Shown here: positions 5,594 through 21,341 of the stretch, piece after piece
Numbering within the stretch: the stretch's first letter is position 1
Layout of the letters: each line of letters begins with the position of its first letter
Assembly (NCBI GenBank): GCA_903889565.1
Contig: CAISYC010000059.1
Location: forward strand, 62,001-126,000
DNA length: 64,000 nucleotides
Source: an uncultured beta proteobacterium
Lineage (GTDB): Bacteria > Pseudomonadota > Gammaproteobacteria > Burkholderiales > SG8-41
Direction: 5' to 3'
The notes under the pieces: model-generated
What the model was told of the DNA's origin: nothing
Databases searched by the model: none
Seen by the model: only the letters and a program-made list of their open reading frames with translations
Translations under genes and position numbers: made by a program

Positions 5594-5728
5594 TGCCGTC
5601 CTTCCTGCGGTTACGCCCGTCGCAAATTCAACGGCGATGCATGATGGCAGAAATTCTACACGAGCAGCGTCGTGTCCGACCGTCCACAATGCGCGCGCCG
5701 GCGTGTGGATCGGGTTCTTTGACGGCGG

Positions 5729-6697
5729 TCAATCGCTGGACGAAATCTTCGCGTCGCGCACGACCTTGCCCCACAGTAGCATTTCACTCAACAGGTAACG
5801 ACGGAATTCGTCGGGCGGGCTGGCGCGCACCGTAACGCCGAGCTGATCGAGGCGCTCGCGCATGTCGGCGGTGGCGAGGATGGTTTTCATTTCGTCATGC
5901 AGGCGTTGCAGAATCGCCGGCGGCACGCCGGCGGGCGCGACGATGCCCCACCACGAATGCACCTCGTAGCCCGGGTAGCCCTGCTCGGCGATGGTCGGGA
6001 TCTCCGGCAGTTGCGGCATGCGTTGCGCCGAGGTGATGCCGAGCGCGCGCACGCGCTGCGATTTGATGAACGGCGCGACGAAAAAGAAGGTGCCCATCTG
6101 CATGGTGATCTGGCCGCCGATGACGTCGGTGATCGCCTGCGGCGGACCGCGATAGGGGATCTGCGTGATGGTAAATCCGGCGCGCTGCCCGATCAGCGTC
6201 ATTGCCAGGTGGCCGCGGCTGCCGATACCGCTGGAGCCCAGCGTCAGTTCGCCGGGGCGCGCCTTCGCCGCCGCCACGAGGTCGGCGAGCGTTTTGTACG
6301 GCGAGTTCGGCGCAACCACCAGTCCATAGGGCGAACTCGCAAACAGCATCACCGGCGTGAAATCCTTCAGCGTGTCGTAGGGCAGCGATTTCTGCAGGCT
6401 CGGATTGGTCGCGTGCGCATCGAAGACGACCAGAAAGGTGTAACCGTCGGCCGGCGCCCGCGCCGCCAGCGTGGTGCCGACCACGCCATTGCCGCCCGGC
6501 CGGCTGTCGACGATGACCTGCTGGCCGAGCGCGGTGGACATGCGGTCGGCCAGCAGGCGCGCGATCTGGTCCGACGAGCCGCCGACGCCAAAGCCGGTGA
6601 GCAGCCGCACCGGCTTCGCCGGCCAGGGCTGGGCGAATGCCGGGGGCGCCAGCAAAAAAATCGACAGTGCGACGGCAAGTCGCAAGGCGCTGCACAT
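5729..6697 (-). CDS. Bug-family periplasmic solute-binding protein
   Basis: 322-residue Bug protein with a signal peptide (SIFLLAPPAFAQ) and mature start QPWPAKPVRLLTGFGVGGSSDQ. The usual VPFxPGG loop is altered to TGFGVGG, but the rest, including VDSRPGGNGVVGTTLAARAPADG, is standard. The ATG at 6697 has GGAGA seven bases upstream. It is divergent from the HyuA-type gene (6809), with 111 bases between the starts, so the two may share control and the protein may deliver the substrate of the HyuAB enzyme. That link is inference from position. Confidence 0.9.
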   Translation of the reverse strand: MCSALRLAVALSIFLLAPPAFAQPWPAKPVRLLTGFGVGGSSDQIARLLADRMSTALGQQVIVDSRPGGNGVVGTTLAARAPADGYTFLVVFDAHATNPSLQKSLPYDTLKDFTPVMLFASSPYGLVVAPNSPYKTLADLVAAAKARPGELTLGSSGIGSRGHLAMTLIGQRAGFTITQIPYRGPPQAITDVIGGQITMQMGTFFFVAPFIKSQRVRALGITSAQRMPQLPEIPTIAEQGYPGYEVHSWWGIVAPAGVPPAILQRLHDEMKTILATADMRERLDQLGVTVRASPPDEFRRYLLSEMLLWGKVVRDAKISSSD

Positions 6698-6808
6698 GTG
6701 CGTGATCTCCGCGTGCCGGCATCGCCGGCATTGATTGAATTGCGGCGCGCTCAATCGGGCCGCGCCGCAGGTTACAATCAAGTCTATTCGAAAAAGAAAA
6801 TTGTCGCA

Positions 6809-8926: not shown

Positions 8927-10617
8927 ATGCGCCGCGCCATGCCGCACTCGATGCCTTTCGCATTGAAATTCTGTCCAATGCGCTCAACGCGATCACCGAA
9001 GAGATCCAGTTGACGCTGCTGCGCTCGGCCTATTCGCAGGTGGTGAAAGAGGCGCAGGATGCCTCGTGCGCGATTTTCACCGCCGAAGGGCGCATGGTCG
9101 CGCAGCCGGTGGTGGTGCCCGGGCATCTGGGTTCGATGCGCTTCATGCTGCAGGAAGTGCTGAAGGAGTTTCCGCCGGCGACACTCAAGCCCGGCGACGT
9201 TTTCATGAACAACGATCCCTACCGCGGCGGCAGCCACCTGCCCGACATCAGCGTGTTCCGGCCGGTATTCCACGAGGGCAAACTCGTTGCGTTCACCGGC
9301 TGCATGATTCATTACACTGACGTCGGCGGCATGGTGCCCGGCAGCAATCCGGTCAAGGCGACTGAGCTATACCAGGAAGGGCTGATCATTCCGCCGGTGA
9401 TGCTCTACGACGGCGGACGGCCGAACAAGACCATGTTCGACATGATCAGCGCCAACGTGCGTAATCCCGACATTTTCATGGGCGATCTGCGCGCGCAGGA
9501 AGGCGCACTGATGAAGGGCGAGGAGCGCCTGCGCGATCTGCTCGAGCGTTACGGCGCCGACGGTGTGGCGCGCGCAATGGAAATGCTGATCGATTTTTCC
9601 GAGCGAAAAGCGCGCGAGGCGATCCGCGCGATCCCCAACGGCGTGTTCGAATTCACCGACTACATGGACCACGACGGCGTCGATCTGTCCAAACCGGTGG
9701 CGATCAAGGTGCGGCTCGAAGTGCGCGACGACAGTTTCTTTTTCGATTTCACCGGTTCCGATCCGCAGGTCAAGGGGCCGCTCAACGCGCCGCTGTCGAA
9801 GGCGTGGACCACGGTGTTCTACTGCGTGCGCTGCGTGCTGCCCGACGATATCCCGTTTAACGATGGTCTCACGCGCGTCGTCGATGTCTATGCGCCCGAG
9901 GGCTGTCTCTTGAATCCGCATCATCCGGCGCCGGTCAACGCGCGCTCGGTGACGGTCAACCGCGTCGCCGATGCGGTGCTCGGCGCGCTGGCGCTCGCGG
10001 TGCCGGAGAAAGTCGGCGCGCAGTGCTGCGGCGTACCGGTCGGCGTTTCCTTCGGCGGCGTCGATCCGCGCAGCGGCAGGAATTTTGTTTTCTACGAAAG
10101 TTATTGCGGCGGCATGGGCGGCAGCCAGACCGCTGACGGCGCCGATGCGGTCAGCACCGGCACCTCGAACCAGATGAACATTCCGGTCGAATCGATCGAG
10201 ATGGATTACCCGGTGCGCATCATGCGCTATGAACTGGTCGAGGATTCCGGCGGCAGCGGCAAGTACCGCGGCGGCCTCGGCATCCGGCGCGAGTACGAAA
10301 TGCTCGCCGAAACCGCGACCTTCAACGTGCGCGGTGATCGCGCCGCGTTCGCGCCGCGCGGGCTCTATGGCGGCGGCAACGGCAGCTTCAGCGCATTTTT
10401 TCTCGACAGTGCGGGCAAGTCCGAAAAACTGCCGAGCAAAATCGGCGGCAACATCGCACGCGGCCAAAGGCTGCGCATCGCCACGCCGGGCGGCGGCGGC
10501 TTCGGCGCGCCGGCCGAACGCGCGCGCGAAGCCATGAACAAGGATATCCGCGACGGCAAGATCTCCGTCGAAAAGTCCCGCGAGGACTACGGCGTAAATG
10601 CGCGCAACCCGGCCTGA
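8923..10617 (+). CDS. Hydantoinase/oxoprolinase family protein, HyuB-type subunit
   Basis: 564-residue partner subunit of the HyuA-type protein. Recognisable family phrases are DAFRIEILSNALNAITEE at the start, VFMNNDPYRGGSHLPDI near residue 90, NAPLSKAWTTVFYCVRCVLP in the middle and ATPGGGGFGAP near the C-terminus. HyuA and HyuB together hydrolyse or carboxylate cyclic amides or ketones in an ATP-dependent way. The start overlaps the hyuA-type stop (ATGA), with an AAGGAG site in the end of that gene. The downstream Bug gene begins 46 bases later on the same strand, suggesting a HyuA-HyuB-Bug transcription unit. Confidence 0.88.
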   Translation: MNAPRHAALDAFRIEILSNALNAITEEIQLTLLRSAYSQVVKEAQDASCAIFTAEGRMVAQPVVVPGHLGSMRFMLQEVLKEFPPATLKPGDVFMNNDPYRGGSHLPDISVFRPVFHEGKLVAFTGCMIHYTDVGGMVPGSNPVKATELYQEGLIIPPVMLYDGGRPNKTMFDMISANVRNPDIFMGDLRAQEGALMKGEERLRDLLERYGADGVARAMEMLIDFSERKAREAIRAIPNGVFEFTDYMDHDGVDLSKPVAIKVRLEVRDDSFFFDFTGSDPQVKGPLNAPLSKAWTTVFYCVRCVLPDDIPFNDGLTRVVDVYAPEGCLLNPHHPAPVNARSVTVNRVADAVLGALALAVPEKVGAQCCGVPVGVSFGGVDPRSGRNFVFYESYCGGMGGSQTADGADAVSTGTSNQMNIPVESIEMDYPVRIMRYELVEDSGGSGKYRGGLGIRREYEMLAETATFNVRGDRAAFAPRGLYGGGNGSFSAFFLDSAGKSEKLPSKIGGNIARGQRLRIATPGGGGFGAPAERAREAMNKDIRDGKISVEKSREDYGVNARNPA

Positions 10618-10663
10618 CCGGCAGCGGATATCGGATCGATGCACGTCATCTGTGGAGCCCGAG

Positions 10664-11644
10664 ATGAAACTTCATATGTGTCGAATTGCCGCAATCATGC
10701 CGTTGCTGGCGCTGGCATCGCCGGCGACCGCGCAGTCATTGTCGTCGCTGGTGCCGCCGAAGCAGGTCGTGATCATCGTGCCGAACGCAGCGGCGGGGCC
10801 GAGCGATTTGCTGGCGCGCTGGATTTCGCCGAAGCTCGGCGAATCGCTGAAACAAAACGTCATCGTTGACAACAAGCCTTCCGCCAACGGCGTCACCGCC
10901 GGCGAATTCGTCGCCCGCGCGCCTGCCGACGGCAGCGTGCTCGGCGTCGGCAACACCGGTACCCATGCAATCAATGGCACGCTGTACCGCAAACTGTCGT
11001 ACGACCCGGTGCGCGATTTTGTTCCGGTGGTGAACGTGTTCGGCGCCGGCCTTGTGCTTGCCGCCAACCCGAAGCTCGATGCGAAATCGATCAGGGACAT
11101 CATCGCCATGGCGAAGGCGAAACCGGGTTCGATCAACGTTGCCATTGCCGGCGCCACCGGCGAGATCGCCACCAACGCGATCAAGGCGATGGCCGGCGTC
11201 GATCTGAACAACGTGCCCTACAAAGGCGGTGCGCCGGCGGTGATTGCGGTGATCTCGGGCGAATCGCATTTCGTGCTGACACCGTACGGCGGCGTCGCCG
11301 CGCAGGTCGATGCGGGCAAGATGAAAATCCTCGGCACCACGGCGGCCAAACGCGACCCGATGATCCCGAACGTGCCGACGCTGGCCGAGTCAGGGCTGCC
11401 GGGATTCGAGATCAGCATGTGGTACGGCGTGTTCGCGCCGGCGAAGACGCCGGCCGCAGTGGTCAACGCGTACAACCGCGAGATTACGCAGATCGTCAAT
11501 CAGCCCGAAATCAGAAACCAGATCACCGCGCAGGGCTTCGAAATCATGACCGGGCCCCCCGAGCAGTTCGCGGAAACCGTGCGCCGCGATGCCGAGAAAT
11601 TCAAGAAAATCATTCTCGACTTCAAGATGCAGCAGGATTTGTAA
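10664..11644 (+). CDS. Bug-family periplasmic solute-binding protein
   Basis: 326-residue Bug protein. The signal peptide ends near residue 24 (ASPATAQ). The family core begins PPKQVVIIVPNAAAGPSDLL, an altered version of the PGGxxD loop, then VDNKPSANGVTAGEFVARAP. The ATG at 10664 has GGAG six bases upstream. It is probably co-transcribed with the HyuAB pair immediately upstream, so it is a good candidate for the receptor of their substrate. It converges with the next Bug gene on the opposite strand, with seven bases between the two stops and no evident terminator. Confidence 0.9.
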   Translation: MKLHMCRIAAIMPLLALASPATAQSLSSLVPPKQVVIIVPNAAAGPSDLLARWISPKLGESLKQNVIVDNKPSANGVTAGEFVARAPADGSVLGVGNTGTHAINGTLYRKLSYDPVRDFVPVVNVFGAGLVLAANPKLDAKSIRDIIAMAKAKPGSINVAIAGATGEIATNAIKAMAGVDLNNVPYKGGAPAVIAVISGESHFVLTPYGGVAAQVDAGKMKILGTTAAKRDPMIPNVPTLAESGLPGFEISMWYGVFAPAKTPAAVVNAYNREITQIVNQPEIRNQITAQGFEIMTGPPEQFAETVRRDAEKFKKIILDFKMQQDL

Positions 11645-11651
11645 GCCCGCG

Positions 11652-12629
11652 CTACTCGAGGCGCACGCCAGCGTGTTTCACCAGGTCGCGCCACTTTGAA
11701 ATTTCCGCGGTGAGAAAATCGCGGAATTCCGCCGGCGTGTTGCCGACCGGTTCGGCGCCGTCTTTCGCCATGTGCTCGCCGACTTCCGGCGCCGCCAGCG
11801 CCTTTTTGATTTCCGAGTTGAGTTTTTGCACCACACCCGTGTGCGTGTTGGCCGGGGCCAGCGCGCCGTACCAGGTCGTGGTCGCATAGCCCTTGACTCC
11901 GGATTCGGCGATGGTCGGAATATCCGGCAGTGCGCGCGCGCGCTTCGCGCTGGTCACGCCGAGCACCTTCAGTTTGCCGGATCGCACATGGCCGAGTGAC
12001 GAAATGACGCTGGCAAAGGTCATGCCGACCTGGCCGCCGATGACGTCAACCAGCGCCGGTCCCGCGCCCTTGTAGGGGACGTGGATGAGTTGTACGCCGG
12101 CGAGATACTTGAACAGCTCACCCGCCATCTGGCCCGAACTGCCGATGCCGCCGGAACCGAATGTGAGTGTGCCGGGTTTCGCTTTGGCTGCGGCGATCAG
12201 TTCGCCGACGGATTTGACCGGCGTCGCCGGATTCACCACCAGCAGGAAGGGCGCCTCGGCAATCAGCGTCACCATCGAAAAATCCTTCACCGGGTCGAAC
12301 GGCAGGCCCGAATACAGGCTCGGATTGATCGAATAACTGCTCGACACGATCAGCACGTTGTAGCCGTCGGGCGTGCTCTTGGCGACCATCGCCGCGGCGA
12401 TCGAACCCGAGGCACCGCTGCGGTTGTCTACTACCACCGACTGGCCGATGTTTTCGGTCATCTTCTGCGCCACCGCGCGCGCCACCAGATCGGTCGCGCC
12501 GCCCGGCGACTGGCCGACCAGAAAACGCACCGGCTTGTCGGGATAGACGGTGTCCGCGCCCTTGCCCTGCGCGTGCGCCGGGGCGCAGGCCGCGATCGCA
12601 ACCAGCGCGACTACGATTCGCGCGCTCAC
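11652..12629 (-). CDS. Bug-family periplasmic solute-binding protein
   Basis: 325-residue Bug protein and last gene of the seven-gene minus-strand operon headed at 19142. The GTG start at 12629 overlaps the stop of the preceding Bug gene in the tetranucleotide GTGA, the best evidence for this start over an ATG farther upstream. The signal peptide runs to about residue 23 (ACAPAHAQ). The mature part has YPDKPVRFLVGQSPGGATDLV and VDNRSGASGSIAAAMVAKSTPDG. Two binding proteins encoded back to back with coupled translation is unusual and may mean two related ligands for one pathway. Confidence 0.88.
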   Translation of the reverse strand: MSARIVVALVAIAACAPAHAQGKGADTVYPDKPVRFLVGQSPGGATDLVARAVAQKMTENIGQSVVVDNRSGASGSIAAAMVAKSTPDGYNVLIVSSSYSINPSLYSGLPFDPVKDFSMVTLIAEAPFLLVVNPATPVKSVGELIAAAKAKPGTLTFGSGGIGSSGQMAGELFKYLAGVQLIHVPYKGAGPALVDVIGGQVGMTFASVISSLGHVRSGKLKVLGVTSAKRARALPDIPTIAESGVKGYATTTWYGALAPANTHTGVVQKLNSEIKKALAAPEVGEHMAKDGAEPVGNTPAEFRDFLTAEISKWRDLVKHAGVRLE

Positions 12630-13612
12630 AGTTTCAGTCCGGTGGATCTGACCAGCTGCGTCCATTTGTCGATTTCCTTTGCGATCGCCGTTCTGAGTTC
12701 ATCCGGCGTGCCGGTCAGGGCCTCGGTGCCGTCGGCGGCGAGTTTATCCGCGACTTCCGGCGTGTGCATGGCGCGGCCGAGTTCGGTTTCGAGCTTGCGG
12801 ATGATGGTTGCCGGCGTGCCGGCCGGCGCGACGATGCCGTACCAGCCGGTGACGTCGTAACCGGGAACCCCGGCTTCGGCGATGGTCGGCAGCTGCGGCA
12901 GGTTGGGCGAACGCCTGCCGCTGGTGACGCCGAGCGCGCGCAGCTTGCCGCTCGTCAGATGCGGCGCCGAAGAAATCGCACTCGCCAGCAGCAGTTGCAC
13001 CTGACCGCCGAGCAGATCGATCAGGGCCGGGCCGCTGCCCTTGAACGGGATGTGTTCCATTTTCGTTTGCGTCATTGACTTGAACAGCTCCATGCCGAGG
13101 TGGGCGGTTGAACCGGTGCCGGATGACGCATAGTTGATTTTTTCCGGATTGGATTTGGCATAGGCGATCAGTTCACGCACGTTTTTCGCCGGTAGCGCGG
13201 GATAGGCCAGCAGCACATAGGGCTGCGAAGTGAGCTGCGTGATCGGGGCAAATGCTGTACGAATGTCGTACGGCACGCGCGTCACCACCGCCGCATTGGT
13301 GATCGCGCTGCCGGATATCACCAGCAGGGTGTAGCCGTCGGGCGCGGCCTTGTGCGCGATGTCCATCGCAATGGTGCCGCCGGCGCCGGGCCGGTTGTCG
13401 GTGACTACCGGCGCCAGCCAGCGCTCGGCCAGTTGCTGGCCGGCAGCGCGTGCCATGATGTCGCTGCCGCCGCCGGGTTGAAAGCCGACGAGAATGCGGA
13501 TCGGCCGCGCCGGGTAGGCAGCAGACTGTACCGGTGCCGCAGTGACGGATATGGCGCCGATGCCGATGCCGATGCCAAGTGCGAAGGCCGAACCAATGAC
13601 GAATTTTTTCAT
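12626..13612 (-). CDS. Bug-family periplasmic solute-binding protein
   Basis: 328-residue Bug protein. The N-terminus MKKFVIGSAFALGIGIGIGA is a signal peptide. The mature part begins YPARPIRILVGFQPGGGSDIM and continues with TDNRPGAGGTIAMDIAHKAAPDG, the family core. Its start overlaps the stop of the MmgE/PrpD gene by four bases and its own stop overlaps the next Bug start, so three genes are chained by overlapping start/stop codons. It presumably imports or senses the substrate of the adjacent dehydrogenase and hydratase genes; no permease is present. Confidence 0.9.
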   Translation of the reverse strand: MKKFVIGSAFALGIGIGIGAISVTAAPVQSAAYPARPIRILVGFQPGGGSDIMARAAGQQLAERWLAPVVTDNRPGAGGTIAMDIAHKAAPDGYTLLVISGSAITNAAVVTRVPYDIRTAFAPITQLTSQPYVLLAYPALPAKNVRELIAYAKSNPEKINYASSGTGSTAHLGMELFKSMTQTKMEHIPFKGSGPALIDLLGGQVQLLLASAISSAPHLTSGKLRALGVTSGRRSPNLPQLPTIAEAGVPGYDVTGWYGIVAPAGTPATIIRKLETELGRAMHTPEVADKLAADGTEALTGTPDELRTAIAKEIDKWTQLVRSTGLKL

Positions 13613-15048
13613 GCGGGCGACGAGAGAATACGCACGATTTCCGCGGCGTCATCGAGTTTTTCGAGATCATCAATCATGGCGATGGCGCGATCGATATTTT
13701 TCTTCGCCACCGCTTGCGCCGCGAACGACAGGCAATCGCGGAACTTGGCTTCGAGTTGCTCCTGTGAAACCGGATGGCGCGGATCGCCGGGCACGCCGTC
13801 GGCCTTTCGCGAAAGCACGCGGCCATCGCGCAGCTTGATTTCGACCGTCGGGCGCGACAGCGCCGACTCGCCGCCGACCGGCACTGTCGCATCGGGATCG
13901 GCGCGCCAGCTGACGCGATCGGCCATGGCCAGAACCGCCGGGTCTTTCAGCGCGGCATCGGTGTAATCGCGCAACTGGACGTTGCCATGGGTCATCATCA
14001 CCGCGGTGGTAAAGGGAATGCTGAACTTGCCGTCAATCGCCAGCTGCGGACGGCGTTTCGCTTCGAGCGGCTCGGACAGCAAACGCGCGCCGCCGGTGCC
14101 GCCGATCACGCTGATCGTCTCGATGTCGGCGGGTTTCAGATTGAATTCGTTGCGCAGTTCGAGCACTGCGGTGTTGGTGGCGCGCGTGTAGCCGCAGGCC
14201 GGCCACACCTTGAAGCCGTGCTTGGCGAGCAGCGGAAATTCGCGGCCGAGTCCGTCGAGCAGTGCGTTCCAGTCGGGCGCGTCGTCGCGCACATAGGTGC
14301 GAAACAGGCCGTAGCGGCCTTCGATGACCTGTTTAGAGCCGACAATGCCGCGTTGCGCGAGTTCGGCGGCAAGCACCGCGCCCTGTCCCGAAAAGCCGGC
14401 CTGCATCGAACGCATATGCGTCGCCGCGCCGACCGCCATCTGGCGGCTGCCGCTCATCTGGTTAAAGCCGATGCCGAGCGCGTTTTCGCATTGTGATGTG
14501 TCGAGGCCGAGCAGGTGCGCCGCGGTGGCGGCGCCGGAGATGAAGCCGAACATTTGCGTCGGAAACCAGCCTTCGGCGATCGTCCAGTCGGGAATCCGGA
14601 TCGCCTGATTCAGGCGCGTGTGGATGTCGGTGCCGGCGGCAATGGCGGCGAGCAGCGTGCGGCCGCTGACGGGGCGGCCGGCCGCGCTGCACTTTTCGGC
14701 CAGCGCCAGCGCCACCGGGATGGTGACGATGCTGACGTGACCGCCGGCACCGACGTCGTCGTAGTCGAGCATGTGGCCGAGGCTGCCGTTGACCAGCGCC
14801 GCCCACGATGCCGGAGCTTTTGCGCCGAAACCGAGCAGTGTGCTGTCGGGTTTGCCGCCGAGTTCGCCGACGTAATCAGCGAGCGTCGTCGCTTCGGGGG
14901 CGAGTCCGCTGGCGCCGATCGCAACGCCCAGCGTGTCGAGCACGCACTGTTTAAGCATGGTGACCAGCGGCGCCGGCAGCGCGTCGAAGGCCAGCGTGGC
15001 GGCGTGTTGCGCAAGCAGGCGGGTCGCATTGTTGTCGACTGGATTCAT
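13609..15048 (-). CDS. MmgE/PrpD family protein
   Basis: 479-residue member of the MmgE/PrpD superfamily, which includes 2-methylcitrate dehydratase, cis-aconitate decarboxylase and iminodisuccinate epimerase. Family features are the helical N-terminal domain with DTLGVAIGASGLAPEATTL (about 35-55), SLGHMLDYDDVG (about 90-102), the KHGFKVWPACGYTR segment near 280 and the GGTGGARLLSEPLEAKRRPQ lid region. It acts in the cytoplasm on small polycarboxylates; the reaction could be dehydration, decarboxylation or epimerisation. It sits three bases after the aconitase-like small subunit gene and four bases inside the next Bug gene, in the middle of the catabolic operon. Confidence 0.87.
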   Translation of the reverse strand: MNPVDNNATRLLAQHAATLAFDALPAPLVTMLKQCVLDTLGVAIGASGLAPEATTLADYVGELGGKPDSTLLGFGAKAPASWAALVNGSLGHMLDYDDVGAGGHVSIVTIPVALALAEKCSAAGRPVSGRTLLAAIAAGTDIHTRLNQAIRIPDWTIAEGWFPTQMFGFISGAATAAHLLGLDTSQCENALGIGFNQMSGSRQMAVGAATHMRSMQAGFSGQGAVLAAELAQRGIVGSKQVIEGRYGLFRTYVRDDAPDWNALLDGLGREFPLLAKHGFKVWPACGYTRATNTAVLELRNEFNLKPADIETISVIGGTGGARLLSEPLEAKRRPQLAIDGKFSIPFTTAVMMTHGNVQLRDYTDAALKDPAVLAMADRVSWRADPDATVPVGGESALSRPTVEIKLRDGRVLSRKADGVPGDPRHPVSQEQLEAKFRDCLSFAAQAVAKKNIDRAIAMIDDLEKLDDAAEIVRILSSPA

Positions 15049-15051
15049 GCT

Positions 15052-15573
15052 TCAGTTTTTCTGCCCGACACATTCACGCATGTAGCGCGCGTAGGCCGAT
15101 TCCGGCAAGCCGCCGGCAGCAAAAATCTGCTCGATCACGGAGGGGAACTTGCGCAATGCCACGCTTTTGCCCGAAGCAGGGGCGCGCACGATGCCGGCCT
15201 GATAATCGACCTCCAGCGTCTCGTCGTCCTCGACAATGCCACAGATGCCGGGCGCGACGAAAATCGGGATCGCGCGCGCGATGCTGTTGCGCAAAAACAG
15301 TCGTGCCACCGATTCGGCGAGAATGACCGCGATGCCGACTTCGCGCAGCACCAGCCCGGGCCGGCTCGAGCCGCAGCCGAAATTGCGGCCGGCGACCAGA
15401 ATATCGCCGGCTTTGACTTCACGCGGGAACTCCGGACGGTAGGCCTCCATGGTGTGCAGCTTGAGTTCCTCCATCGTCGGGTAAAGGTAATACGGATTGA
15501 TTGCGTCGGTCTCGATCGAATCGCCGAATTTCCAGACGCGTCCGCGCAGCGTGCTGTTGAGATCAAATGCCAT
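15052..15573 (-). CDS. Aconitase/isopropylmalate isomerase family small subunit (LeuD-like)
   Basis: 173-residue small ('swivel') subunit of a two-subunit hydro-lyase of the LeuD/homoaconitase type. It shows FGDSIETDAINPYYLY near the start and the signature GRNFGCGSSRPGLVL near residue 75, where LeuD has NFGCGSSRE. The ATG at 15573 was chosen to match the family start; it overlaps the large-subunit gene by 11 bases. Together the pair would hydrate or isomerise an unsaturated dicarboxylate or tricarboxylate. True leucine biosynthesis is unlikely because leuB and leuA are absent and the context is a catabolic operon. Dimethylmaleate or citraconate hydratases have the same architecture. Confidence 0.87.
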   Translation of the reverse strand: MAFDLNSTLRGRVWKFGDSIETDAINPYYLYPTMEELKLHTMEAYRPEFPREVKAGDILVAGRNFGCGSSRPGLVLREVGIAVILAESVARLFLRNSIARAIPIFVAPGICGIVEDDETLEVDYQAGIVRAPASGKSVALRKFPSVIEQIFAAGGLPESAYARYMRECVGQKN

Positions 15574-16843
15574 CGAACACCTCGCGTGGATCGACGATCC
15601 TGCCGGCGACCGCAGCGGCGGCAACGGTCAGCGGCCCGGCCAGATAGATGTCGGCTTTCATGCTGCCCTTGCGGCCCTTGAAATTGCGCGTCGTCGCCGT
15701 GATGCAGGCTTCGCCGTCCGACAGATAGCCGACCTTGGGCTGGCAGACGCCGCAGCCCGGCGTAATGACCTGGGCGCCGGCTTCGATCAGGCTTTCGACC
15801 AACCCCGCCTTGATGCATTGCAGATAGACCTGCTGCGAGGCCGGCGAAATCAGGAAGCGCATGCCTTTGGCGACCTTGCGGCCTTTCAGCATGCGCGCCG
15901 CAATCTCGATGTCCTCGTAACGGCCGTTGGCGCAGGAGCCGATGATGGCCTGCTGAATTGGCACACCCGAGACCTCCGACACCGGCCCTACATTGCCGAA
16001 CTGATGCGGCTTTGCGACGGCAAAGGGCATCGTATCGACATCGAGCACGATTTCCTTTTCGTAGTGCGCGCCGGCATCGGCGGCGAGCGGCTCGAACGGA
16101 TGATCGGTGCGCGTACTGAGAAATTCACGGGTCTTGTCGTCGCAGGGAAACATCGCCAGCTTGGCGCCGACTTCGACGCCGTGCGCGGAGAGACACATGC
16201 GGCTGTCGATCGACAGCTGCGGCACCAGCGTGCCGGCGTACTCGATCGACATGCTGCCGGCAAAGTCGTCGCCGTAGCGGCCGGCCAGATGCAGGATGAT
16301 GTCCTTGGCGATCGGATAGTTCGGCTGTTTGCCGTTCAGCACCAGTTTCAGTGTCGGCGGCACCTGAAACCACAACTCGCCAAACAACAGCACGTACAGC
16401 ATGTCGGCACGCGTGATGCCCATGCCGCCCGCGTTGAGCGCGCCATAGCTGATGGTGTGCGAATCGTTGCCGACCACCAGTTCGCCGGGGCGCATGAGGC
16501 CGTAATCGGCCATCATCTGATGCGAAATGCCCGGTTCCGAATCGTGAAAGCATTTGATGCCGAGGCGCGCGACTTCGCGCCGGATCAGCGCGTTCTCGTC
16601 GGCCTGTTTTTGCGACAGCGTCGGCTGGTGATGATCGAGCAGCACAAAAATGCGGTCGCGGTCCCACACGCGCGGCAGCCCGTCCTTGAAACCGGCCTGC
16701 ACCGCCAGATCGACCATCGGTTCGTTGGCGTGGTAGTGCATCATCGCGCCGTCGATGCGTGCTTCGAGGAAGTCGCCGCACTGCACGGGCTTGCCGGCGA
16801 GGTTATGGCGCGAGAACAGTTTCTCGGCGATGGTTTGTGCCAT
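15563..16843 (-). CDS. Aconitase/isopropylmalate isomerase family large subunit (LeuC-like)
   Basis: 426-residue catalytic subunit of a [4Fe-4S] hydro-lyase. The three cluster cysteines are present: one in IIGSCANGRYED (about residue 298) and two in PGCGVCQPKVG (about 359-362). The N-terminus MAQTIAEKLFSRHNL and the DSHTISYGALNAGGMGI substrate/cluster region (about 152-168) are standard. At 426 residues it matches the short archaeal-type LeuC/homoaconitase/dimethylmaleate hydratase group rather than the roughly 470-residue proteobacterial LeuC. It lies 30 bases after the GntR gene and overlaps the small subunit gene. The substrate is probably a citraconate-, aconitate- or dimethylmaleate-like acid (inference). 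Confidence 0.88.
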   Translation of the reverse strand: MAQTIAEKLFSRHNLAGKPVQCGDFLEARIDGAMMHYHANEPMVDLAVQAGFKDGLPRVWDRDRIFVLLDHHQPTLSQKQADENALIRREVARLGIKCFHDSEPGISHQMMADYGLMRPGELVVGNDSHTISYGALNAGGMGITRADMLYVLLFGELWFQVPPTLKLVLNGKQPNYPIAKDIILHLAGRYGDDFAGSMSIEYAGTLVPQLSIDSRMCLSAHGVEVGAKLAMFPCDDKTREFLSTRTDHPFEPLAADAGAHYEKEIVLDVDTMPFAVAKPHQFGNVGPVSEVSGVPIQQAIIGSCANGRYEDIEIAARMLKGRKVAKGMRFLISPASQQVYLQCIKAGLVESLIEAGAQVITPGCGVCQPKVGYLSDGEACITATTRNFKGRKGSMKADIYLAGPLTVAAAAVAGRIVDPREVFDGI

Positions 16844-16873
16844 GATGGTTATAGGCCTGCGTTGGTGTCAGTT

Positions 16874-17590
16874 TCAGTCGCGTTTGCCGGGAAACAGCTG
16901 CTTGAGGCGTTCGCGTTGCGCCGAACGCACATGACGGCGCGCCGCCTCTTCGGCTGCCGCAGCATCGCGTTTGAGGATGGCGGCGGCCAGTTCGCGATGC
17001 TCGCTTTCCGCGGTTTTCGCGCGATGCGGCAGCAGCATCTGGCTCTTGCCCAGCAGCCACATCGAATCGTTGACCGCGGCGAGGCTTTTTTCGAGATAGC
17101 GGTTGTGCGCGCCGCGATGCACGGCTTCGTGGATGAGTCGGTTATGCCGCACCAGCGCTTCGAAATCGCCGCGCAGCATTTCTTCGCGCTTGACCAGTTC
17201 CGCGAGTTCCATGCGCTCGAATTCCGATGCATGCTGCGCGCAGAGGAGCGCTGCCGTGCCTTCGAGCACCTCACGCATGACGTACAGTTCAACCATGGCC
17301 GTACGATCGAGCGAGGAGACGACGAGCCCGTTGCGCGGCTCGAGCGCCAGCACGCCTTCCATTTCGAGCCTGCGCAGCGCGTCGCGCACCGGCGTGCGGC
17401 TGACCTTCAGCCATTCCGCGATCTCGACTTCCATCACGCGCTCGCCGGGTTTCAGTTTGCCCTGTTCGATCGCTTCGCGCAGTTCGGCGTAAACGAGTTC
17501 GCTGCGCGACGCGTACTGACGGTCGATGCCGGATGCGGTGCTCGACGGGCGGGACGCCGTTTTACGGCGCAGCGGCGTGATCGATCCCAT
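16874..17590 (-). CDS. GntR-family regulator, FCD subfamily
   Basis: 238-residue transcription factor. A winged helix-turn-helix spans about residues 30-95, with VEIAEWLKVSRTPVRDALRR as recognition region. The C-terminal all-helical FCD ligand domain has aspartate and histidines (DFEALVRHNRLIHEAVH, later LLPHRAK and ESEHREL) placed as in the metal-binding FCD group. The ATG at 17590 has GGGAG seven bases upstream. It is encoded inside the operon it probably controls, after the FAD dehydrogenase (43-base gap) and before the hydro-lyase large subunit. FCD regulators often bind TGTATACA-cored palindromes, and one lies at 19196-19207. The effector is likely the pathway substrate. Confidence 0.9.
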   Translation of the reverse strand: MGSITPLRRKTASRPSSTASGIDRQYASRSELVYAELREAIEQGKLKPGERVMEVEIAEWLKVSRTPVRDALRRLEMEGVLALEPRNGLVVSSLDRTAMVELYVMREVLEGTAALLCAQHASEFERMELAELVKREEMLRGDFEALVRHNRLIHEAVHRGAHNRYLEKSLAAVNDSMWLLGKSQMLLPHRAKTAESEHRELAAAILKRDAAAAEEAARRHVRSAQRERLKQLFPGKRD

Positions 17591-17633
17591 GCAGAGCTCC
17601 CGATACGCGTTAAAAACGCCAGTGTTTGTTTGC

Positions 17634-19142
17634 TTAGTTTGCCGTCGCTGCGGCGCCGGCGTGCACAAAATTCGCCGCTTCACGCCCGGCAATGCGTCCG
17701 AACACTGCGCCGGCCATCAGGCCGGTGCTGCCCGGATAGTTGAAATAATACAGGCCGCCGACCAGTTCGCCCGCGGCATAGAGGCCGGGAATCGGATTGT
17801 CCTCGATATCGAGCACGTGCGCGTCGGGATTGATCTTGAGGCCGCCGAAAGTGAAGGTAATGCCGCAGCCGACCGAGTAGGCTTCGAACGGCGGTTTCTC
17901 CAGCCGGTTGGCCCAGTTGGTCTTGTCGATCGCGAGTCCGCTGGTGCCGCGGCCGTCACGGACATTGGGATCGAAGGCGACATCGGTTTTGACCGCGGCG
18001 TTGTACTCGCGGACGGTATCGAGGAAGTTCTGCGGGTGCACATCCTGCATTTTCTCGACCAGTTGCTCGAGCGTGTCGGCCTGCACCTTGGTCGCGCCGC
18101 GCAGCTTGTACTCGTCGCGCATCAGCGGTTTGACCTGCTGGTCGAAAATCTGCCAGGCAAAGCTGCCCGGCTGCTGCAGCACCACGCGACCGTATTTTGC
18201 ATAGGTGTAGTTGCGGAAGTCGGCGCCTTCGTCGACGAAGCGCTTGCCTTCGGAATTGACCATGATGCCGAACGGATAGCTGTGGCGGTAACCGGCATGC
18301 GGATGCTCGACATCGCCGAAATCGGCGGCATAACGCTCCCATGCGACCGAGTGACAGCCGGACCACTGGCCGTACGACTGCGCGCCGATGTCGAGCGCCA
18401 TGCGGATGCCGTCGCCGGTGTTGTAGCGGGTGCCGCGCACCTTGGCGATATCGAAGCCGGGGCCGAGGTAGCGCGTGCGCATCTCGCGGTTGGCCTCGAA
18501 GCCGCCGCAGGCGAGCACCACCGCGCGCGTGCGGACCACCGCATCGATGCCGTCGCAACGCACGCGCACGCCCTCGACGCCCTGCGCGCCGCGCACGATT
18601 TCAGTCCCCTGCGCGCCGTATTTGACCGGGATGCCGTGTTGGTCGAGCGATTTGTAGAGCAATTCCATCAGGCCGCGGCCGCCGCCGTTGGCGTAGATCA
18701 CGATGCCGCCGAAAAATTTGAAACGGCCGTTGACGTTATAAGCCTGGCGGCCGTAATTCGGCACGAAGCGCGCGCCGCGGCCGCGCATCCACTGCACGGT
18801 GTCGAAACTGTTCTTGACGATGGTTTCGGCAAGATCGGGGTCGATGTAGTACTGGGTGATGCGGCCAAGGTCGTCGAGATAGTCTTCCGCGGTGTACTGG
18901 CCGAAATCGGAGCGCGCGATCTCGTCATCGGTGAGATCGGGGACCACCTTCTTGATATCCTCGGTGCCGTGATGAACCATGCGGAAGCCGCCGCCGGTGT
19001 AGGCGCTGTTGCCGCCGCGTTTGTCTGCGGGCGCGCGTTCAAGCACGAGGACGCTGGCGCCCTGTTCGCGCGCCGACAGCGCGGCGCAGAGGGCGGCGTT
19101 GCCGCCGCCGATGACGACGACATCAAACTGTTCACTGCTCAT
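17634..19142 (-). CDS. FAD-dependent tricarballylate dehydrogenase-like flavoprotein
   Basis: 502-residue FAD-binding protein of the fumarate reductase/succinate dehydrogenase flavoprotein superfamily. The Rossmann motif VVIGGGNAALCAALSA is at residues 9-24. The C-terminal FAD contact PIPGLYAAGELVGGLYYFNYPGSTGL is near residues 450-475. The GNAAL variant and length fit the TcuA group, which oxidises tricarballylate to cis-aconitate. The start at 19142 has CGGAG about nine bases upstream. It heads the seven-gene operon and is divergent from the isocitrate-lyase-like gene. No TcuB-like reoxidase is adjacent, so the electron acceptor is unknown. Related flavoproteins dehydrogenate other 2-ene-forming acids or 3-ketosteroids. 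Confidence 0.82.
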   Translation of the reverse strand: MSSEQFDVVVIGGGNAALCAALSAREQGASVLVLERAPADKRGGNSAYTGGGFRMVHHGTEDIKKVVPDLTDDEIARSDFGQYTAEDYLDDLGRITQYYIDPDLAETIVKNSFDTVQWMRGRGARFVPNYGRQAYNVNGRFKFFGGIVIYANGGGRGLMELLYKSLDQHGIPVKYGAQGTEIVRGAQGVEGVRVRCDGIDAVVRTRAVVLACGGFEANREMRTRYLGPGFDIAKVRGTRYNTGDGIRMALDIGAQSYGQWSGCHSVAWERYAADFGDVEHPHAGYRHSYPFGIMVNSEGKRFVDEGADFRNYTYAKYGRVVLQQPGSFAWQIFDQQVKPLMRDEYKLRGATKVQADTLEQLVEKMQDVHPQNFLDTVREYNAAVKTDVAFDPNVRDGRGTSGLAIDKTNWANRLEKPPFEAYSVGCGITFTFGGLKINPDAHVLDIEDNPIPGLYAAGELVGGLYYFNYPGSTGLMAGAVFGRIAGREAANFVHAGAAATAN

Positions 19143-19195
19143 TGCACGAAACTCCGGAGGGTTGGCGGGGCGCGGCATCCCGAGCGATGGATGCA

Positions 19196-19207
19196 CATGT
19201 ATACATG
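19196..19207. promoter_or_regulatory. Perfect palindrome CATGTATACATG, candidate GntR operator
   Basis: A perfect 12-base palindrome lies between the divergent FAD dehydrogenase (start 19142) and isocitrate-lyase-like gene (start 19286). Its TGTATACA core is the form bound by several FCD-type GntR regulators, such as MdcY and MatR of malonate operons. The GntR gene is in the left operon. A site here could control both directions. Binding is not shown, only inferred. Confidence 0.55.
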
Positions 19208-19285
19208 AGAATACGGTAGAATGATGCACCGGTCAATCTCGCGGCCGTAGCGCGCTGCGGCGACCGCCTGCCAAGGAAATTACAA

Positions 19286-20221
19286 ATGAAAACAGCCTCG
19301 AAAGGCGCCTTGTTGCGCGCGCTGATGAACCGCAGGGGAAAAGTGCTGGCGATCCTGCATCCGCCGACCGCGGCGCACGCGCGCATCATGGAAAAATCCG
19401 GTTGCGAGGCGGTCTTCGTCGGCACCGGCGGCGTGGTCGGCGCTTACACGGGGCTCGCCGACGTCGGCGCGCTGGGCATGATGGAGTGCGTGCAGATCGC
19501 CGGCTGGATCGCCGCCAGCGTCAACATGCCGGTCATCATGGACGGCGACACCGGCCACGGCGGGGTGATGGCAGTGCGCCGCATGGTGCGCGAATGCATC
19601 CGCGCGGGCATCGCCGGCGTGCGCATCGACGACCAGCCGATCGAAGGCAAGCGGCGCACCCAGAGCGCGGGCGTGGAAGTGGTGCCGATCGAACAGGCGG
19701 TCGCGCGCTATCGCGCCGCGGTCGACATGAAGAACGAACTCGACCCGGATTTCGTCGTGATGGCGCAGTGTTATGCGCGTGATGCGTCGAACAGCAGCCT
19801 TGATGATTGCATCGTGCGCCTGAAGGCCTACCGCGAAGAGGCGGGGGTGGATTGGGTGCAGCTCGAATCGCCGCATTCAATCGAGGAAATCAAACTGGCG
19901 CGCGCCGCAGTCGAGGGGCCGCTGTCGTTCATGAAAGGCAAGCTGCCAGGTTACCTTGGTTTTGACGAGCACCTCGCGCTCGGTATCAACATCGCGTGGT
20001 ATCCGGGATTTACCCACCATGTGACGTGGGCGGCTTTGTCAGACTTCATGCAGGCGTTTCAACAGAAGGGCGTCGGGGCGTGGGACGATTTCGTCGCCTC
20101 GCGTGCGGACCACCCTTATCTGATGCCGGAGATCGGTGCCGACGGCGAAGGGCTCGCCAAACAGCGCGAACTCGAAGAGAAATATTTGTCGGGGGCGGCG
20201 TTGAGCAAATACCGGAAATGA
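19286..20221 (+). CDS. Isocitrate lyase/PEP mutase superfamily protein
   Basis: 311-residue TIM-barrel protein. The superfamily metal site appears as VIMDGDTGHGGV (about residues 84-95), and VRIDDQP (about 112-118) matches the strand before the active-site loop. In lyases that loop reads K-R/K-C-G-H; here it reads KRRTQSAG, so the catalytic cysteine is replaced. It is therefore not an ordinary isocitrate or methylisocitrate lyase; it could be a hydrolase, a mutase or a lyase with another base. AAGGA lies seven bases before the ATG. It is divergent from the catabolic operon and shares its intergenic region, so it probably acts in the same pathway. Exact reaction unknown. Confidence 0.8.
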   Translation: MKTASKGALLRALMNRRGKVLAILHPPTAAHARIMEKSGCEAVFVGTGGVVGAYTGLADVGALGMMECVQIAGWIAASVNMPVIMDGDTGHGGVMAVRRMVRECIRAGIAGVRIDDQPIEGKRRTQSAGVEVVPIEQAVARYRAAVDMKNELDPDFVVMAQCYARDASNSSLDDCIVRLKAYREEAGVDWVQLESPHSIEEIKLARAAVEGPLSFMKGKLPGYLGFDEHLALGINIAWYPGFTHHVTWAALSDFMQAFQQKGVGAWDDFVASRADHPYLMPEIGADGEGLAKQRELEEKYLSGAALSKYRK

Positions 20222-20263: not shown

Positions 20264-21341
20264 CTAATTTAGCGCGAAGGCCTCGTTTACCGACGTTAAG
20301 AATGCCGTGCCGGTGACCGGCGCGCCGCCGGCGAAGTAGATTGCATCGCCGATGGTCGCCGCACCCGCGCCGTGGCGCGGCGTCGGCAGCGGCGCATAAC
20401 TTTCCCACCGGTCGGTTTTGACGTCATAGCCCTCGTTTTGCCCGTGCAGCTTGCCGGTCGATTCGCCGCCCATGATAAAAATGCGCTCGCGCAGCACGGC
20501 CGCAGCGTGGCCGCCGCGCGGCGTCGGCAACGGCGCGCGTGTTTCCCAGGCGTCGGTCTGCAAATCGTAAACGTGATGCAGATCGCTGCTGCGGCTGGAG
20601 CCGTCGAGACCGCCGCCGATGACATGAATGCGGCCGTTTAGCGCCACCGCGCCGGCGTGATCGCGCGCATCCGGCAGCGGCGCGCGCGGCTCCCAATTAT
20701 CCGCGGCGGGATCGTAAACCTCGTGCCAATCGACGCTCTTCTTGATGTCGCGTCCGCTGGCGCCGGCGATGGCGTGAATTTTTCCGTCAAGCGCAATCAC
20801 TGAAGCGGCCGCGCGCGCGCGGCAGCGGCGCGACCGTCCGCCATTCGCCATTCGCGATGTCGAAAGCATAGACGTCTTGGTGCGGCAGGCGAATCTGGTC
20901 GATAAAGCCGCCGACGGCGTAGAGCACGCCGTTGCCGATGGCGACGCCGATATGGCTGGCGCCGCGCGGCAGCGGTGCGGCCTCGGTCCAGGCATTTTTA
21001 GCTGCGTCGTAGATGTGGTGATAGGCGCGATCGAAACGCAGATTGCCGTAGCCGCCGACCACGTGCATGCGGCCGTTCCACGCCGCCGCCCATGCCATTT
21101 CGCTGCGCGGAAACGGCAGCAGCATGCGCGTCGTCCAGCGGCCGGGTTTTGCCGCGCGAGCGGCCGCGCTGTCAAAACTTTTCTGCGCTTCGGCATTGGG
21201 CGGAAGACGCGTGATCGAGGCGTCGCGCGCGTGTATGATGGTCGCGCCGTCGTTTCCCGCTTGCGCGCGCAGCCAGGCAGGCGCCATGGCGAACGCGGCG
21301 AGCGCGGCTTTGACGAGCGTTCGGCGTTGCGCGGAATGCAC
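20264..21341 (-). pseudogene. Exported Kelch-repeat protein, interrupted by a frameshift
   Basis: The two halves are in different frames. The upstream half (21341 to about 20815) starts at GTG with a Tat-like leader (QRRTLVKAALAAFAMAP) and carries Kelch blades such as AAWNGRMHVVGGYG and GNGVLYAVGG. The downstream half (about 20815 to 20264) continues with HAIAGASG, GRIHVIGGGLDG and ERIFIMGGEST blades to the stop. The switch falls in an alternating GC run at 20808-20822, a likely slippage or sequencing-error site; total length is one base off a multiple of three. The intact product would be a periplasmic beta-propeller of about 355 residues with six or so repeats. It starts six bases after the sulfurtransferase gene. 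Function unknown; a binding or catalytic propeller is possible. Confidence 0.75.

Follow-up and report, generated by a model that had tools for sequence, protein, structure and literature searches.

A conserved operon containing a GntR regulator and a divergent gene for an isocitrate lyase-fold protein without the lyase cysteine and arginine: a probable unit for di- or tricarboxylate catabolism

The methylcitrate cycle is carried out by PrpD, AcnB or AcnD, and PrpB, and nicotinate fermentation uses dimethylmaleate hydratase (DmdAB) together with dimethylmalate lyase. In the itaconate/methylsuccinate cluster of Cupriavidus necator, as far as the available text of its description goes, an MmgE/PrpD isomerase acts on the free substituted succinate, dehydrogenation, hydration and cleavage follow, and a TctC-type gene is found nearby; this route is CoA-dependent, with a CoA transferase, an acyl-CoA dehydrogenase and a citramalyl-CoA lyase (PMC12290011). 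The tcuABC genes of Salmonella, an operon for tricarballylate, include a dehydrogenase of the TcuA-like family (available part of PMC10468695). A plasmid operon of Hydrogenophaga sp. BPS33 (L182) has the order Bug-TcuA-LeuC-LeuD-Bug-PrpF.

We analysed a 64,000-nucleotide stretch of DNA (the window) from an uncultured betaproteobacterium. Eight genes were recovered from the list of open reading frames (ORFs) and by a codon-scored gene caller, whose choices of start are given here. Seven lie on the minus strand: a TcuA-like FAD dehydrogenase (17634..19142; FAD_binding_2; longest ORF start 19229), an FCD-type GntR regulator (16874..17590; Pfam GntR and FCD; longest ORF start 17692), the LeuC/homoaconitase-family large subunit AcnL (15563..16843; Pfam Aconitase, NF001614), the LeuD/DmdB-family small subunit AcnS (15052..15573; TIGR02087; longest ORF start 15624), an MmgE/PrpD-family protein (13609..15048, with the start at 15048 or 15051; PF03972/PF19305) and two Bug/TctC receptors (12626..13612 and 11652..12629, the latter with a longest ORF start at 12665; Pfam TctC). 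The gaps between the FAD and GntR genes and between GntR and AcnL are 43 and 30 bases, AcnL and AcnS overlap by 11 bases, PrpD abuts AcnS or lies 3 bases away, and the first receptor gene overlaps PrpD, and the second the first, by 4 bases each. The eighth gene, on the plus strand (19286..20221), is divergent, starts 143 bases from the FAD start and encodes an ICL/PEP-mutase-family protein. The families are backed by Pfam for all eight genes and by NCBIfam for six, the NCBIfam models giving no match for the two Bug proteins. The packed seven-gene set facing an ICL/PEP-mutase-family gene that the first-pass annotation had described, and its positions, are thus confirmed. The window operon has no transporter membrane gene, and scanning the window for Rfam families (at gathering thresholds) and for tRNAs gave no match.

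The same three superfamilies occur in the methylcitrate cycle, but the window proteins do not reach the curated PrpD and PrpB models and the active site of the ICL-like protein is changed. Like DmdAB and its lyase, the window set pairs a LeuCD-type hydratase with an ICL-superfamily protein; the canonical lyase residues are absent, and the hydratase comparison was made through the broad LeuD/DmdB model. In contrast to the C. necator cluster, the operon contains no CoA enzyme, and its dehydrogenase, hydratase and lyase-like protein come from free-acid families. Relative to Salmonella tcuABC, as outlined in the available part of PMC10468695, TcuB was not found above the curated cut-off, the hydratase, PrpD and ICL-like genes are additional, and GntR lies inside the operon. 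The BPS33 operon has an FAD dehydrogenase 58% identical to that of the window, with LeuCD and Bug receptors, but a PrpF-type isomerase replaces PrpD, LeuC is only 38% identical and an ICL-like gene is not annotated in the stretch shown. A literature search with little coverage of subscription journals did not return this gene set among the matches listed, nor a paper on dimethylmaleate hydratase and dimethylmalate lyase together.

The genes probably form one conserved, co-regulated catabolic unit for a di- or tricarboxylate. We consider the chances evenly balanced that the operon and the divergent gene degrade a substituted succinate as the free acid, without CoA and under GntR control. The substrate class that we infer is a tricarballylate-like 1,4-dicarboxylate with an alkyl or carboxymethyl group. 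The Bug receptors would bind this acid outside the cell, and the MmgE/PrpD protein would epimerise the carbon alpha to a carboxylate via an enolate, which would make both stereoisomers usable. The TcuA-like flavoprotein would then desaturate the succinate backbone to a fumarate-, maleate- or aconitate-type alkene, the LeuCD-type Fe-S hydro-lyase would hydrate the alkene, and the ICL-fold enzyme would use its metal site to convert the hydroxy-acid, probably by C–C cleavage or decarboxylation, another general acid standing in for the usual cysteine. GntR is predicted to bind ATGTATACAT between the divergent genes and to govern both transcripts. If this is true, environmental bacteria would possess a conserved module under GntR regulation that degrades substituted succinates as free acids and complements the methylsuccinate route that depends on CoA.

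The genes are adjacent more often than expected by chance, and their adjacency is conserved in the neighbourhoods of other genera. Among 74 genomes of the host family, 23 of the 34 AcnL orthologues lie within 10 kb of an ICL-like orthologue (0.17 expected) and 25 of the 34 within 10 kb of an FAD orthologue; genome-level co-occurrence (25/3/11/35) gives a Fisher p=3.6e-8, with relatedness ignored. The AcnL orthologues counted are the 34 of 37 matches with at least 71% identity, and the co-location counts use 39 of 70 ICL-like matches (at least 65% identity) and all 44 PrpD and 42 FAD matches. Eleven AcnL places are not near an ICL-like gene: five are further copies (two in G054, and G007, G020 and G005), three (G032, G030, G008) are on a different contig from the ICL-like gene and three belong to genomes where the ICL-like orthologue was not found (G031, G037, G027). 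The pathway idea had been made to depend on the genes co-occurring in such a comparison, and they do. A further set of named loci, the best 80 of 87, was retrieved with the peptide patterns [IM][MIL]DGDTGH and G[VI]RIDDQP; in L109, L122 and L130 the ICL gene had escaped the gene caller. AcnLS is present in 26 of these best 80 of 87 loci, 25 of which also have the FAD gene; among the latter are the environmental isolate Shinella lacus CPCC 100929 (L124), where a TctA permease gene adjoins, a deltaproteobacterial MAG, and HRbin23, where an oligopeptide-type ABC transporter adjoins. Contigs of beta-, alpha- and deltaproteobacteria, as well as HRbin23, retain the core of dehydrogenase, LeuCD-type hydratase and ICL-fold protein.

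The AlphaFold model of the ICL-like protein (pLDDT 88.2, pTM 0.86) has the ICL/PEP-mutase barrel fold, and its top Foldseek match is 1xg3, the C123S form of E. coli PrpB (E=4e-18). The metal- and active-site aspartates D59, D86 and D88 (PrpB D58, D85 and D87) are found in 80/80 named loci (best 80 of 87), D86 and D88 partly by construction because one search pattern held DGDTGH. In the same 80 loci the position of the catalytic cysteine (PrpB C123, Mtb ICL C191) never holds Cys, being occupied by R, K, G, A, S, T or M, and the arginine of the ARTDA motif (PrpB R158, which we take to be equivalent to Mtb R228) is replaced by Gln throughout. Both positions lie outside the two search patterns, though the patterns still select this subfamily; a pattern-free search found the identical motif in 38 other orthologues, and some contigs enter the motif counts twice, as family locus and as named locus. 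Named orthologues with both residues replaced come from Proteobacteria, Rokubacteria and Chloroflexota (best 80 of 87). The ICL-like protein of L076 (40% identical) retains Arg, and that of L077 (35%) retains Arg and Cys. The C191S variant of Mtb ICL is inactive (available text of PMC7609661). With both residues missing, C–C cleavage by the ICL-like protein is not secured. Of the dehydrogenation, hydration and C–C cleavage proposed in the first-pass annotation, the conserved core bears out the enzyme set, while the cleavage residues are lost.

The first-pass annotation had given PrpD no role and mentioned neither the operator nor the alternative partners. By sequence, the nearest structures to the PrpD protein are IRG1, IDS-epimerase and cis-aconitate decarboxylase. 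Four of six IDS-epimerase residues (H85, D88, H99, H150, K198 and K266, counted including the 20-residue tag of 2hp0) are retained as H92, D95, H104 and K280, and F162 and R213 stand for H150 and K198. Phe occupies the H150 site in 27/27 named loci (best 80 of 87) and Arg the K198 site in all 26 that cover it; because of these replacements a function as epimerase is not secured. According to the available text of PMC12290011, the MmgE/PrpD protein of C. necator isomerises methylsuccinate, and a 1,4-dicarboxylate core is common to the known substrates of the family. A role as cis-aconitate decarboxylase is disfavoured: Phe162, Arg213 and Cys285 stand against His159, the Lys of TKP and His277 of ACOD1 (positions counted by hand, with a one-residue offset), where H277A abolishes and H159A lowers activity (available text of PMC11814083).

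AcnL and AcnS fall into the LeuC/LeuD subfamily of HACN-type hydro-lyases. AcnL exceeds the cut-off of NF001614 (425 vs 385 bits), just misses that of TIGR02086 (407 vs 410) and retains three Fe-S cysteines; the motifs GSC (45/45) and GCxxC/GCSxC (44/44) are complete in every match that covers them, out of 46 matches with some contigs counted twice. The structures nearest to AcnS by sequence are 3vba, 2pkp and 1v7l. A role in leucine biosynthesis was rejected, since three other loci of the genome (C15, C61, C8) exceed the curated leuC equivalog cut-off, on which AcnL scores 187.5 vs 560 bits. The first-pass annotation would have given up the pathway idea had the hydro-lyase only isopropylmalate isomerase activity and the genome no other LeuCD, and these loci remove that objection. 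The small-subunit loop is linked to substrate specificity. In AcnS it reads NPYYLYP, against NPYY[R/L/K/Q]YP among relatives, most of which have Arg where the window has Leu, and it is two residues shorter than in the isopropylmalate/homoaconitase small subunits compared. The loop is not diagnostic of the substrate.

New relative to the first-pass annotation is a conserved palindrome in the divergent promoter, ATGTATACAT (19197..19206), a predicted operator of the GntR regulator. Atu1419, another regulator of the FCD-GntR type, has this 10-mer as its proven operator (available text of PMC7797058), and the window protein shares with it the GntR and FCD domains and a 10-bp palindrome at the promoter. 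The palindrome is the single match in the window with at most one mismatch; as 0.28 are expected by chance, the match is weak alone. In the whole genome, the 12-mer CATGTATACATG is found at a single position. The core TGTATACA is present in 13 of the 14 named loci (best 80 of 87) with a GntR orthologue, one of which (L090) rests on a 73-residue match, and in 14 of 31 FAD/Acn-type loci (2.4 expected), compared with 0/37 amidohydrolase-only loci (2.5 expected). Among family loci, an overlapping set, 16 have a GntR match and 13 of these contain it, the exceptions being L054 (same contig as L091), L076 and L077. Two GntR loci have the relevant stretch of DNA but not the exact core: L091, where the first 187 bases span the distances found at other loci, and L076, where the GntR is more distant (53% identical; 29% in L077). 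The putative pairing of GntR with the palindrome would offer a direct handle on the inducer, and hence on the substrate.

PrpD, an aconitase-type hydratase and a PrpB-like protein together embody methylcitrate enzyme logic, and PrpB gives the best NCBIfam score of the ICL-like protein (122 bits). In a methylcitrate-like path, PrpD would dehydrate an alkylated citrate, AcnLS would rehydrate it to an isocitrate isomer, the ICL-like lyase would cleave this product and the FAD dehydrogenase would feed in a saturated analogue. Such a path is unlikely, however: the ICL-like score is far under the PrpB cut-off of 354, PrpD is far under the 2-methylcitrate dehydratase cut-offs (43.5 vs 950, 27.2 vs 575, 23.7 vs 458), and the ICL-like protein lacks PrpB's Cys and Arg. 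The first-pass annotation had likened the pairing of LeuCD and ICL proteins to dimethylmaleate hydratase and dimethylmalate lyase; here the flavoprotein would make the alkene from a dialkylsuccinate, for a LeuCD-like hydratase and a 2,3-dimethylmalate lyase. AcnS does score above the LeuD/DmdB model TIGR02087 (134 vs 109 bits), and the 2,3-dimethylmalate lyase structures 3fa3/3fa4 are among the sequence and fold matches of the ICL-like protein, but 3fa3 ranks under several other superfamily members. As Cys and Arg are missing in 80/80 loci (best 80 of 87), neither the analogy nor a normal retro-aldol step can be taken for granted; we hold this path to be quite improbable, and membership in it is not supported.

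Nor is membership in the Tcu pathway. The FAD protein passes the broad TcuA model NF006130 (563 vs 369 bits), which upholds in part the noted resemblance to tricarballylate dehydrogenase and would fit classical tricarballylate use, with TcuA supplying cis-aconitate to the TCA cycle and the other genes as passengers. It misses a second TcuA model (TIGR02485, 261 vs 373 bits), the solved structures closest to it in sequence are those of flavocytochrome c fumarate reductases, and it is only 38% identical to a TcuB-paired TcuA, with a different FNYPG segment. The classical pathway was rejected because a search of the genome for TcuB (TIGR02484) gave one weak match (36.8 bits) and none above the cut-off of 246.6. 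The genome also has aconitase-length homologues (open frames of ~780-900 residues), so that a dedicated hydratase would add little to this route, and eight more full-length FAD paralogues (42-57% identical), which makes the family broad here; we judge classical tricarballylate use very unlikely. Bug, FAD, PrpD and LeuCD could instead be generic shuffling modules without a single pathway, adjacent here by chance. Groupings of FAD+PrpD+Bug and LeuCD+ICL+Bug recur at other places in the same genome, and gene order differs strongly between loci. Yet orthologues, not merely family members, are kept together across genera, and the loci share one conserved palindrome; we hold a chance assembly to be unlikely.

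Besides the proposed degradation of substituted succinates, the ICL-like enzyme probably takes part in a second pathway. At 37 of the 80 named loci (best 80 of 87) there is an Amidohydrolase_2 gene but neither FAD nor AcnLS; 18 of these 37 have less than 5 kb of sequence on at least one side, so that partners may be hidden. In genus g9, the ICL-like gene has neither FAD nor AcnLS close by at 10 of 12 loci, eight of which carry PrpD. It is possible, if short of likely, that the ICL-like protein is a functionally distinct superfamily branch, whose different reaction would conclude an undescribed polycarboxylate pathway independent of CoA and would be common to two unrelated feeder modules: the dehydrogenase with the LeuCD hydratase, or the Amidohydrolase_2 protein. 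Such a conserved branch without the lyase Cys and Arg would be a defined, expressible target for the discovery of new reactions. A rapidly built tree, which left 28 of its 78 inner branches open and carried a warning of long branches, has a minimum of 13 changes in each of two context labels; this only indicates that partners were swapped repeatedly. In the tree, operator and motif counts, L124 and L137 were assigned AcnLS (36-38% identical) by hand. A plasmid search for ICL-like orthologues gave best identities all below 60%. A CapA-like gene missing from the window operon lies downstream of the ICL-like gene in many relatives; its nearest homologue in the window's own genome is 51% identical and lies on another contig.

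Gene calling and Pfam/NCBIfam family matches bore out a packed set of seven minus-strand genes with a divergent isocitrate lyase (ICL)/PEP-mutase-family gene. The seven encode a TcuA-like FAD dehydrogenase (19142-17634), an FCD-type GntR regulator (17590-16874), the LeuC-like and LeuD-like hydro-lyase subunits AcnL (16843-15563) and AcnS (15573-15052), together AcnLS, an MmgE/PrpD protein (15048-13609) and two Bug/TctC receptors (13612-12626 and 12629-11652), and they overlap or are separated by at most 43 bases. The ICL-like gene faces them on the plus strand (19286-20221). The source assembly has 74 contigs (5.04 Mb) and is 99.7% complete. Pointing at the operon from the plus strand (6698-11644) are a hydantoinase A/B (oxoprolinase) pair and then another Bug receptor; 4619-6655 contains two additional Bug genes, and a HyuB-HyuA-like pair also occurs near LeuC paralogues at another locus (L173). 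On the minus strand, what we take to be a kelch-repeat gene (20264-21341) is split over two overlapping frames, 20264-20800 and 20787-21341, of 178 and 184 aa, compared with the ~268 aa usual for the cluster in named-genome loci L078-L081; a frameshift or a misassembly may be the cause.

The association of these genes is more than chance. Among 74 genomes of the SG8-41 family, including the window's own, orthologues of the ICL-like gene (at least 65% identity) were found at 39 places in 36 genomes, and 34 AcnL orthologues (at least 71% identity) in 28 genomes. An ICL-like orthologue lies within 10 kb of 23 of the 34 AcnL orthologues, where ~0.17 would be expected from 21 kb of a 4.2-Mb genome, and a FAD orthologue within 10 kb of 25. 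The ICL-like gene is present in 25 of the 28 AcnL genomes (Fisher p=3.6e-8, uncorrected for kinship). Gene order and strand are reshuffled among the family loci, a pattern that favours selection for the gene set over inheritance of a single unbroken block. Among the best 80 of 87 ICL-like loci in named genomes, 26 contain AcnLS (L124 and L137 being counted on 36-38% identity), 30 the FAD gene and 25 both. Such loci span Betaproteobacteria (mostly MAGs), Alphaproteobacteria, a deltaproteobacterial MAG (L143) and HRbin23 (L146); TctA and IclR-family genes adjoin the locus of the alphaproteobacterial isolate Shinella lacus (L124), and an oligopeptide-type ABC transporter that of HRbin23. The first-pass annotation had proposed a carboxylate degradation system whose genes should recur together; the neighbourhoods uphold this general idea, and the cluster is a real, conserved catabolic unit, probably co-regulated.

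The predicted model of the ICL-like protein (pLDDT 88.2) has E. coli 2-methylisocitrate lyase as its top Foldseek match (E=4e-18). In M. tuberculosis isocitrate lyase the core residues described are Asp108, Cys191 and Arg228, and a C191S variant is inactive (PMC7609661). Across the best 80 of 87 named orthologues, the Asp is present in all 80, Cys gives way to R, K, G, A, S, T or M in all 80, and the Arg position is invariably Gln, the same change as in 9hhs, a solved structure titled R152Q mutant of 2-methylisocitrate lyase. With Cys and Arg replaced in 80/80, we rejected the reading of the window protein as an ordinary isocitrate or methylisocitrate lyase and, by extension, as an ordinary dimethylmalate lyase; the proposed analogy to dimethylmaleate hydratase and dimethylmalate lyase thus does not extend to membership. 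Elsewhere in the window genome, three further LeuC-type genes have ICL-like neighbours that keep both residues (L169, L170, L187), and a fourth such neighbour (L173) keeps Arg with Ser for Cys.

The likeness of the flavoprotein to tricarballylate dehydrogenase also stops short of membership. It passes the NCBIfam TcuA model NF006130 (563 vs 369 bits) but not TIGR02485 (261 vs 373 bits), no TcuB was found above cut-off in the window genome, and the TcuB-paired TcuA of Gemmobacter (L186) is only 38% identical. A [FY]NYPGS segment occurs in 52/52 FAD orthologue matches, some contigs being counted twice, with Tyr first in eight; the Gemmobacter TcuA is without it. AcnLS retains the Fe-S cysteines and its subfamily scores, and AcnS has a loop shorter by two residues than those of the isopropylmalate and homoaconitase small subunits compared. 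The LeuC-like subunit scores far under the leuC cut-off (187.5 vs 560 bits) and three genes elsewhere in the genome exceed it, removing the first-pass concern that this hydro-lyase might be the genome's only LeuCD.

The PrpD protein scores far under 2-methylcitrate dehydratase cut-offs. Of the six residues singled out in IDS-epimerase it retains four (H92, D95, H104, K280); Phe162 and Arg213 replace the two others in 27/27 and 26/26 orthologues covering them, and Cys285 aligns with His277 of ACOD1. A C. necator relative is described as isomerising methylsuccinate, and the authors of that account regard a 1,4-dicarboxylate core as common to all known MmgE/PrpD family substrates (PMC12290011). 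In the proposed pathway, an acid captured by the Bug receptors would be epimerised by PrpD via an enolate, desaturated as a free succinate-type acid by the FAD enzyme and hydrated by AcnLS; the ICL-fold protein would then carry out a metal-dependent step, probably C-C cleavage or decarboxylation in which an unconventional residue serves as the acid. Such a pathway would parallel the CoA-dependent methylsuccinate route, but with free acids. The gene content, its conservation, the palindrome and the residue changes are observations; the substrate, the reactions and their order are inferred from them. Because two PrpD and two ICL residues differ from those of known enzymes, the first (PrpD) and last (ICL-fold) steps are the weakest.

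The 143-base divergent intergenic region contains the palindrome ATGTATACAT (19197-19206). It is the sole window match at up to one mismatch, a finding of little weight by itself given 0.28 matches expected by chance; in the whole genome, the 12-mer CATGTATACATG is found at one single place. Evidence for the putative operator is stronger across relatives. Of the best 80 of 87 named loci, 14 have a GntR orthologue, and 13 of these carry TGTATACA, placed either before the GntR operon or in the gap that separates the FAD gene from the ICL-like one. The remaining locus, L091, has no 10-mer match at up to three mismatches in the 187 bases before the GntR match; as these span the distances seen elsewhere, it is a real exception. 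Two further true exceptions, L076 and L077, are family loci whose GntR genes are more distantly related. TGTATACA occurs in 14/31 FAD/Acn-type loci (2.4 matches expected) and in 0/37 amidohydrolase-only loci (2.5 expected). The FCD-GntR Atu1419, which belongs to the VanR group, has this same 10-mer as its experimentally demonstrated site (PMC7797058). We infer that the GntR regulator pairs with this palindrome. Since the site lies between the FAD and ICL-like genes in the window, L078, L079 and L089, the simplest reading is that GntR would control both divergent transcripts. Burkholderia sp. Ax-1724 (L115) carries two TGTATACA palindromes, at 9749 and 9921, upstream of its ICL-like gene; PrpD-type and enolase-superfamily genes lie alongside, and no GntR orthologue was matched in the locus.

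The window genome has 11 LeuC-family genes besides full-length aconitases and 13 PEP-mutase-family genes; 6 of the former have one of the latter no more than 5 kb away (0.34 expected). PrpD-type and Bug genes are neighbours of several FAD paralogues (L175, L177, L178, L180). A Hydrogenophaga sp. BPS33 plasmid (L182, 7944-14510) carries a parallel operon, Bug-TcuA-LeuC-LeuD-Bug-PrpF, where, unlike in the window cluster, no ICL-like gene is annotated. The window operon is thus one of several polycarboxylate modules, and of the modules examined it is the one whose ICL-like protein has changed most. The cluster is a variant of already known kinds of system; the ICL-like branch is one component whose novelty could exceed this.

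Several results count against the proposed pathway. The ICL-like gene also turns up without the rest of the FAD/AcnLS/PrpD set. Among the best 80 of 87 named loci, 37 have an Amidohydrolase_2 gene (~384 aa) without FAD or AcnLS, although in 18 of them the sequence extends less than 5 kb to one side or both. In genus g9, FAD and AcnLS are not nearby in 10/12 ICL-like loci, and PrpD is in 8 of these 10. On a tree built by a quick method and carrying a long-branch warning, each of the two context labels requires at least 13 changes. The Amidohydrolase_2 protein, in 42 of the best 80 of 87 loci overall and often directly adjacent, is spread over Proteobacteria, Rokubacteria and Chloroflexota; two such proteins gave no NCBIfam match. 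A CapA-like protein occurs in 20 of the best 80 of 87 named loci. Its CapA/PGA_cap-family gene lies 3' of the ICL-like gene in L095, L097, L084 and others, and it belongs to many FAD/Acn-type clusters. It is absent from the window operon, and the nearest homologue in the window genome (contig C21) is 51% identical. The sole NCBIfam match of two tested CapA-like proteins was MslH, far under cut-off (78.7 and 87.5 vs 700), described as a calcineurin-fold lasso-peptide epimerase (PMC10406935). In L145 and L154, the stretch given has one stop codon within the ICL-like match.
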